From Marine Group I thaumarchaeote (GTDB lineage: Archaea; Thermoproteota; Nitrososphaeria; Nitrososphaerales; Nitrosopumilaceae): a DNA stretch of 64,000 nucleotides. The notes beneath the pieces are model-generated. The model was not told the origin of the DNA and did not search any database. It worked only from the letters and a program-made list of their open reading frames with translations. The translations under genes and the position numbers were made by a program. Position 1 is the stretch's first letter; the number at the start of each line of letters is the position of its first letter. Location of the stretch: positions 248,001-312,000 of the forward strand of contig JACATG010000001.1 of the NCBI GenBank assembly GCA_013390905.1, written 5' to 3'. Of the stretch, positions 24,132 to 27,014 are shown one piece after another.

Positions 24132-24686
24132 ATGAAAAAGAGATGCGAATGGGCAAAAGATGAACCAAACATCACATACCATAACAAAGAATGGGGTAGG
24201 CCACAACATAATGATCAAAAATTGTTCGAATTTCTTATACTAGAAGGAGCCCAGGCTGGTTTATCTTGGACTACTATTCTCAAACGTAGGGAAGGCTATA
24301 GAAAGGCATTTTCTGATTTTGATGCCTTAGTTGTCGCAAAATACACTCAAAATCATGTTGAAAAACTACTCAGCGATAAATCTATCATTAGAAATAAACT
24401 GAAAATCACTTCAGCAATTAACAATGCAAAACAGTTTCTAAAAATTCAAGAAGAGTTTGGCTCATTTGATCACTATATCTGGGGATTTGTGAATCACACG
24501 CCAATTAAAAATAAATTTAAAAAACTATCCGATTTACCAGCATCATCCAAAATTTCAGAGAAACTAAGTAAAGATCTTAAAAATCGTGGATTTAATTTTG
24601 TTGGACCTACAATTTGTTATGCATTAATGCAGGCAACCGGTTTGGTGAACGATCACACCTCTAAATGCTTTCTTTATCAAAAATAA
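24132..24686 (+). CDS. tag: DNA-3-methyladenine glycosylase I
   Basis: This 184-aa enzyme removes 3-methyladenine from DNA. It begins with the zinc-site CEWA and has YHNKEWGRPQHND and GLSWTTILKRREGYRKAF. FVGPTICYALMQATGLVNDH follows near residue 155, with the remaining zinc ligands in NDHTSKC. Length and motif order match Tag. Its short gap from the upstream promoter suggests an independent unit. Confidence 0.95.
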   Translation: MKKRCEWAKDEPNITYHNKEWGRPQHNDQKLFEFLILEGAQAGLSWTTILKRREGYRKAFSDFDALVVAKYTQNHVEKLLSDKSIIRNKLKITSAINNAKQFLKIQEEFGSFDHYIWGFVNHTPIKNKFKKLSDLPASSKISEKLSKDLKNRGFNFVGPTICYALMQATGLVNDHTSKCFLYQK

Positions 24687-24744: not shown

Positions 24745-25116
24745 ATGGTTGAGGGGAAATTTGCAACTTCAGTTTCATGTATAGATGGTAGAATACAAAT
24801 TCCCTTGGCAAAATGGATAAAAGAAAATTATTCAGTTGACTATGTAGATACAATCACAGAACCTGGTGTTGATAAAACAATTACAGAAAATTCTGTTTTT
24901 GAATCAATTAAAACTAAAGTTAGTATATCTATTAATGCTCACAAATCTGAATTGATTGTTTTATCAGGTCACTATGATTGTGCAGCAAATCAAGTTTCAA
25001 ATGAAGAACATATTGAGTTGATTAAAAAAGGAATTGGAGTTATTTCTTCCTGGAATTTAGGTGCAAAAGTTATTGGTGTTTGGGTTGATGATTCCTGGAA
25101 TGTCAATACTATCTAA
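24745..25116 (+). CDS. Mini beta-carbonic-anhydrase-like protein
   Basis: This 123-aa protein has the beta-carbonic-anhydrase zinc layout: C12 with the Asp-Arg dyad in CIDGR (residues 12-16), and H76 and C79 in GHYDC. Beta-CAs hydrate CO2 to bicarbonate. The protein is far shorter than typical enzymes (around 200 aa) and lacks the usual N-terminal arm, so it may be a minimal enzyme or a relative with another substrate. It stands just upstream of the broken NRAMP gene. Confidence 0.65.
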   Translation: MVEGKFATSVSCIDGRIQIPLAKWIKENYSVDYVDTITEPGVDKTITENSVFESIKTKVSISINAHKSELIVLSGHYDCAANQVSNEEHIELIKKGIGVISSWNLGAKVIGVWVDDSWNVNTI

Positions 25117-25188: not shown

Positions 25189-26447
25189 ATGAATGATAAA
25201 TTATCTCGTTTTTAAAAGACAGCTGGACCTGGAATTTTGTTTGCAAGTACTACCATTGCGTCTCTCATTTAGTGCAATTAACTAGGGCTGGAGCATATTT
25301 TGGTTTAATGATTTTAGGATTTGTTATTGTAGTTACTTTGTTAAAATATCCTTTTTTTGAGTATGGGTTTCGTTATGCAAACTCTACTCAAACTAGTATT
25401 ATTGATGGTTACAAAAAACTTGGTAAACCTGCTTTGTGATTATATTTTCTACTAACTATTGCTTCACTGTTTTTTGTTACAGGAGCTGTGGGCTTTGTTG
25501 CCGCAGGATTTTTTGAAAATCTTTTTGGAATAGATTTTCTTGGAGAATGGACCATAATCATTTTGTTTGCAATATGTGTTGCAATTTTAGCTATTGGAAA
25601 ATTCAATATTCTTGACAGTCTGATCAAGATTATAGTTGTTGTTTTGGTGGTTTCTACAGTTTCTGCTTTCTTGTTTGTATTGTATAATGGCCCAATAGAA
25701 CATGTCGAAGGATTTGTACCAAAAGAACTTTGGAATGCTTCTGGAATCTTTTTCTTACTTGCTTTAATGGGTTGGATGCCTACTGCTGTTGATCTTTCAA
25801 GCTGGAATAGTTTATGGACATTAGAAAGAATGAAACAAACAAATTATAGGCCCAAACTCAAGGAAACCCTTTTTGAATTCAGATTAACATATTTTATAAC
25901 AGGAATTCTTGCAGTAATGTTTGTAACACTCGGCTCTTTTATTTTCTATGGGTCTGGTGAAGACTTGCCAAACAACAATTCTCTTTTTGCACATAAAGTA
26001 GTAACATTGTACACTTAGACAATTGGAGATTGTAGTTATATCATAATTGCAGCATCTGCATTTACTGTTATGTTTGGAACAATCATTGCTGTTTTGGATG
26101 GTTATCCTAGGTCATTAAAGAGAACTGTAGAATTGATTTTTACTGAAAAAGAGGACAAAGTGAGCACAAAATTCCGTCCGCTATACGTTATTTTCTTATT
26201 TGTATTATCTGCTGGATCACTTGTAATCATTCTTCAATTTAAAAATAATTTAAAAGAACTAGTTGATTTTGCAACTGTTTTATCATTTCTAATATCTCCT
26301 GTGATTACCATTTTTAATTTCAGACTAGTCACAGGCAAACATCTTGCAAAAGAATCTCAGGCTTCAATGGTGTTAAAAATTTTGAGTTTTGCAGGAATTA
26401 TATTTTTATCCGGTTTTGCAATAGTGTTTGTTCTTACTAGATTTTAA
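25189..26447 (+). pseudogene. NRAMP-family divalent metal transporter, disrupted
   Basis: Joined across frames, this region encodes an NRAMP transporter: AGPGILFAS, then TRAGAYFG, YPFFEYG, GYKKLG, and DGYPRSLKRT late in the protein. Four lesions break it: TAA at 25213, an extra CT in the CTCTC run at 25264-25265 that shifts the frame, TGA at 25437 and TAG at 26016. Fragments such as 25488-26018 and 26070-26447 stay open because decay is recent. A functional copy would import Mn2+ or Fe2+; ferritin follows directly. Confidence 0.85.
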
Positions 26448-26495: not shown

Positions 26496-27014
26496 ATGAA
26501 AATTTCAAAAAACATGCAAAAAGCACTAAACAACCAAATCACTCTAGAAGCAAACGCATCAAATAGCTATATGGCAATGGCATCGTGGTGTGAGGTCACT
26601 GGGTATGACGGTGGTGCTAGCTTCTTTTATGCACAATCAGACGAAGAGAGAAAACATATGCTAAAATTTATTCACTATCTGAATAATTTGGGTATTTCTG
26701 CAGTAATTTCTGCTACAAAATCGTCTGCAAGTAATTTCAAATCTCTAGAGTCTATTCTAACGACTGCACTAAAGAATGAACAAACAGTTACTACTGCAAT
26801 TCACAAGATGGTTGAAATCTCACAAAAAGATAAGGATCATTCAACATATGCATTTCTAGAATGGTTTGTTAATGAACAAGTTCAAGAAGAAACAAAGTTT
26901 GAAACTTTGATACAAAAGTTTGAACTGATCGGAAGAGATAAGATTGCCATAAATGAGATTGACAAAACTTTAGCAGCAATTGCTACAACTTTTACAACTG
27001 ATGCTACTGCCTAG
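26496..27014 (+). CDS. ftn: Ferritin
   Basis: This 172-aa four-helix ferritin keeps the ferroxidase residues E18, Y25, E51 and H54 (DEERKH) and the later NEQVQEE containing the helix D ligands. It oxidises and stores iron in a 24-mer shell. It follows the broken metal-transporter gene by 48 nt, hinting at former co-regulation of metal import and storage. Confidence 0.93.
   Translation: MKISKNMQKALNNQITLEANASNSYMAMASWCEVTGYDGGASFFYAQSDEERKHMLKFIHYLNNLGISAVISATKSSASNFKSLESILTTALKNEQTVTTAIHKMVEISQKDKDHSTYAFLEWFVNEQVQEETKFETLIQKFELIGRDKIAINEIDKTLAAIATTFTTDATA

Follow-up and report, generated by a model that had tools for sequence, protein, structure and literature searches.

Question raised by the locus

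The reading frame at 25189-26447 of the window (the whole stretch of 64,000 nucleotides analysed) is interrupted several times and is directly followed by a ferritin gene. The preliminary description had taken it for a recently lost NRAMP importer of Mn/Fe. The locus therefore raises the questions of whether the gene is really decayed, how recently it decayed, what the encoded protein was and what its loss means for the organism.

Lesions of the interrupted reading frame

The transporter locus was found to contain the following features.

25189..26447, + strand: Nramp-related (NCBIfam Nramp_1, NF037982-type) LeuT-fold transporter pseudogene of ~420 codons (tblastn; intact orthologues in congeners)
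25213..25215, + strand: premature stop TAA at codon 9 (sequence)
25258..25259, + strand: 1-nt deletion (frameshift) in TM1, at the Gly codon of the I-G-V-S-H motif (codon-level comparison with relatives)
25437..25439, + strand: premature stop TGA, where relatives contain Trp (sequence; comparison with relatives)
26016..26018, + strand: premature stop TAG, where the nearest intact relative contains Gln (sequence; comparison with that relative)

The frame starts with the ATG at 25189 and ends at the natural stop at 26445-26447. In the tblastn comparison with an intact 421-aa protein of a congener, residues 1-23 and 25-421 were covered with 87-88% identity across the three stops and the frameshift. 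Since the full-length similarity runs through every stop, the frame is not a chance one. The residual ORFs of 176 aa and 125 aa were found to be conserved in sequence, and the longest lesion-free product from a standard start is the 176-aa fragment. The stops previously reported at 25213, 25437 and 26016 are real and correctly placed, and the fourth lesion is indeed a frameshift. Its reported cause, a CT expansion at 25264-25265, was ruled out because CTCTC is native in the relatives, in which the TCTC run belongs to the Val-Ser-His codons; the pseudogene is 1 nt short just upstream, in the Gly codon.

Orthologues and gene order in Nitrosopumilus

Transporter orthologues were found in 76 of the 95 congeneric (Nitrosopumilus) genomes, nearly all without an internal stop. 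Among the good-quality Nitrosopumilus genomes they were found in 52 of 56, a count that takes in the broken copy of the window genome as well as the broken copies of G034 and G068. The closest intact orthologues were 88-89% identical to the pseudogene over the whole length. The gene order membrane protein, tag, carbonic anhydrase-like gene, transporter and ferritin is widely conserved in the genus, and in the window the neighbouring genes were found to be intact.

24132..24686, + strand: DNA-3-methyladenine glycosylase I, intact, syntenic marker (Pfam E 1.9e-79; synteny)
24745..25116, + strand: putative carbonic anhydrase-like protein (Pro_CA_2), intact, upstream neighbour (Pfam E 7.6e-46)
26496..27014, + strand: ferritin (PF00210), intact, 48 nt downstream of the pseudogene (Pfam E 3e-38)

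Because the orthologues of the congeners are nearly all open and the synteny is conserved, it is the copy in the window that has decayed, and the comparison with the relatives supports the decay of an NRAMP-superfamily transporter gene. No second copy of the transporter was found in the window's own genome.

The carbonic anhydrase-like gene was far more variable than its neighbours, with 92% identity in G047 and 59% in G048, and was not found adjoining the transporter in G049, which suggests replacement or fast evolution of this gene.

Family, fold and motifs of the transporter

The nearest intact orthologue matched NCBIfam NF037982 Nramp_1 with 74.7 bits (cut-off 50), and all 47 homologues matched it at E<=0.01. 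With Pfam PF01566 Nramp (gathering cut-off 29.8) the intact congener copies were borderline, at about 18-39 bits, and 12 of the 95 genomes were over the cut-off. When the PDB sequences were searched with a profile built from the family, only chance matches resulted, and a fold search was therefore used. For the G047 orthologue, which is intact, the AlphaFold2 model (47 homologues; pLDDT 86.7, pTM 0.87) found its best PDB matches in Nramp/MntH and EleNRMT, with TM about 0.68-0.76 and 10-15% identity. The LeuT fold of the model is shared with the canonical DraNramp (TM 0.68-0.76), and in the TM1 region the segments GP and AGA-x-FG were found to align with the canonical Nramp/MntH proteins.

The metal-binding motifs were found to differ from those of the canonical proteins, to which the family is 10-12% identical. 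In the alignment with E. coli MntH (query sequence 99.8% identical to E. coli records), the TM1 motif DPGN is occupied by GVSH and the TM6 motif MPH by MPT (profile comparison E 0.0002, with a probability of only 46%). The G24, V25, S26, H27, M197 and P198 residues were invariant in the 47 homologues and T199 was nearly so. The canonical Nramp/SLC11 motifs are thus missing across the whole family, including its intact members, and the intact NRAMP motifs described previously were not found. The family combines the Nramp/LeuT fold with the absence of both DPGN and MPH. Nramp-related or Slc11 'orphan' outgroup proteins, which have been set apart from the canonical metal importers (PMC12873925, PMC10606218), likewise have the Nramp fold with diverse residues replacing DPGN and MPH. 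Sequence comparison places the transporter with this orphan clade, the substrate of which may differ from that of the canonical importers; no characterised member of its own sub-clade was found.

A divalent cation is a plausible substrate, judging from the predicted fold. The model matched the non-canonical Mg2+ transporter EleNRMT (PMC8806188; PDB 7qia/7qji) with TM 0.72 and 15% identity. Since DPGN reads GVSH and MPH reads MPT throughout the family, Mn/Fe import stands as annotation only and is not indicated for this transporter. The NCBIfam name, 'Nramp family divalent metal transporter', is likewise only an annotation of the family matched by the homologues of the broken window copy. Of the earlier assignment, membership of the NRAMP superfamily was borne out by NCBIfam and fold, and the Mn/Fe importer was not.

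The gene neighbours in Bacteroidota were also considered as a clue to the substrate. In five Flavobacteriales loci (L085:2252-3688, L086:1953-3338, L087, L092, L098) a short-chain fatty acid transporter gene was found immediately before the homologue, and this was PF02667 in the two loci tested. The other loci differ, and the neighbours were not informative.

Ferritin and other metal importers

A functional tie between the transporter and ferritin, as previously suggested, was not supported. In G088 the transporter was cleanly deleted and ferritin retained, whereas in G005, G012 and G021 the transporter, ferritin and the next ORF (110-aa) were all missing. The ferritin start lies about 2 kb downstream of the transporter in G047, and several transporter homologues have no ferritin nearby. 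The proximity of ferritin is general synteny.

Searches of the window's own genome found no PF01566 match, no FeoB and no Nramp paralogue. One ZIP-like match was present, below the cut-off. A ZnuA-type ABC binding protein gave one strong match; it is present in 87 of the 95 congeners and is therefore not a replacement. A replacement transporter, which had been proposed together with a search for another NRAMP or ZIP gene, was accordingly not found in the families tested. The small genomes G012 and G019 were found to contain neither an Nramp-related gene nor any ZnuA-type binding protein.

The loss of a Mn/Fe importer through a changed metal supply or a replacement importer, with ferritin retained, is on these grounds improbable. 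The family name, the Nramp/MntH and EleNRMT fold matches and the adjoining ferritin are in its favour, but the DPGN/MPH metal site is missing, the presence or absence of ferritin does not track the transporter and no new metal importer was found in the families tested.

Timing of the decay

In the flank tree the window genome was sister to G090 with a support of 86. The codon model gave an omega of 0.136 on the window branch against 0.086 in the background, a rise which was not significant by itself (2dlnL 2.6), and omega=1 over the whole window branch was rejected (2dlnL 20.5). In a model of constraint followed by neutrality, a loss of constraint in the last ~5-15% of the window branch was compatible with the data, the best fit being at 5-10%, with a 2-lnL interval of about 0-17%. 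A neutral phase of 10-15% of the branch would be expected to give 0.6-0.8 stops and three were observed, which is somewhat above expectation for so short a phase (Poisson P about 0.02-0.05 by our own arithmetic). Six changes, S31L, S61F, M94L, W282C, A370S and P392A, were found at positions that are >=98.5% invariant in 93 homologues. This is the highest number in the full set, followed by G034 with four, the median being 0. The branch omega, the late loss of constraint and the six altered positions argue for recent decay, in agreement with the preliminary description. Intact orthologues in relatives, disabling lesions and relaxed constraint were thus all found for the locus.

A sequencing or assembly error, with the gene intact in the living organism, is very unlikely. 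The single assembly and the constraint that the lineage still appears to show overall (omega 0.14) speak for it. Against it, three of the four lesions arose by base substitution, each giving a different stop codon, rather than by indels in homopolymers; six invariant residues have also changed, and the neighbouring genes are open.

Recurrent loss across the genus

At least five separate loss events were found (window, G034, G066, G068 and G088), in addition to the deletions in G005, G012 and G021. Of the transporter, G066 retained codons 1-202, beyond which the sequence is unrelated. G068 (L116:2400-4808) contained an internal deletion in which codon ~71 is joined to a GYSRS segment, followed by the presence of transposase-like sequence (DEVYFGGKRKG). 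G034 contained its own 1-nt deletion at the same Gly codon as the window, the frame being otherwise open, whereas the G082 transporter contained a late stop only. The genomes with losses were smaller, with a completeness-corrected median of 1.35 vs 1.67 Mb (7 losers among 56 good genomes; Mann-Whitney p=0.02, not phylogeny-corrected). In the sponge-symbiont papers checked, including PMC7848895 on the Hymedesmia methanophila symbiont, no mention of metal transport or pseudogenes was found.

Some rearrangements were also observed around these loci. In G005, G012 and G021 (L111, L112, L118) a zinc-motif 57-aa ORF was left adjoining the carbonic anhydrase-like gene, with a partial, reversed match in G012. 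In G066 (L115:3011-3616 and toward ferritin) the transporter is cut at about codon 202, where it adjoins C-terminal sequence from an unrelated protein. In G034 (L120:2424-2974, L120:1826-1942) a frameshift interrupts the neighbouring tag gene near codon 20, and only the last ~40 residues of the CBS-domain gene were matched; larger genes on the same contig were full length, which points to a local cluster of decay.

A frameshift common by descent to the window and G034 was rejected, as the two are not sisters (AU p 0.017 for the flanks and 0.0045 for the gene; the gene-tree constraint also excluded G090, of which only 69 codons are present because contig C87 stops within the gene). That this one codon has lost 1 nt twice, independently, is recorded as an unexplained coincidence. 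A mutational hotspot at the codon, or a switch by which the transporter is reversibly turned on and off, in place of simple decay, is a reading to which we give hardly any credence. Least probable of all is a split transporter, made of separately expressed peptides or by frameshifting and stop readthrough: the conserved 176-aa and 125-aa ORFs and the otherwise open frame of G034 would suit it, but all four lesions, three of them different stop codons, would need bypassing, the breaks fall inside the core of the LeuT fold, a slippery sequence was not recognised at the frameshift site, and G034 is not the sister of the window and has altered invariant residues of its own.

Significance of the loss

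The locus at 25189-26447 is thus, with high confidence, a pseudogene of recent origin in an ammonia-oxidizing marine archaeon, a Nitrosopumilus with a small genome; the Nramp-related transporter gene was inherited vertically, and its decay is a case of ordinary reductive gene loss. In the genus the ancestral gene was intact and strongly constrained by purifying selection, and late on the terminal branch the window copy gained the three nonsense substitutions, the 1-nt deletion and several invariant-residue substitutions. The transporter may have become dispensable in a reduced-genome lineage, or in a niche not needing its substrate, and neutral mutation would now be eroding the pseudogene. Because several Nitrosopumilus lineages lost the transporter independently of one another, its benefit appears to be conditional.

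A single pseudogene is routine. The metal-homeostasis account drawn from one window is corrected, in that the broken gene encoded an orphan Nramp-related carrier which is repeatedly lost in the genus, and the recurrent losses form a natural comparison set for finding the substrate of the transporter.
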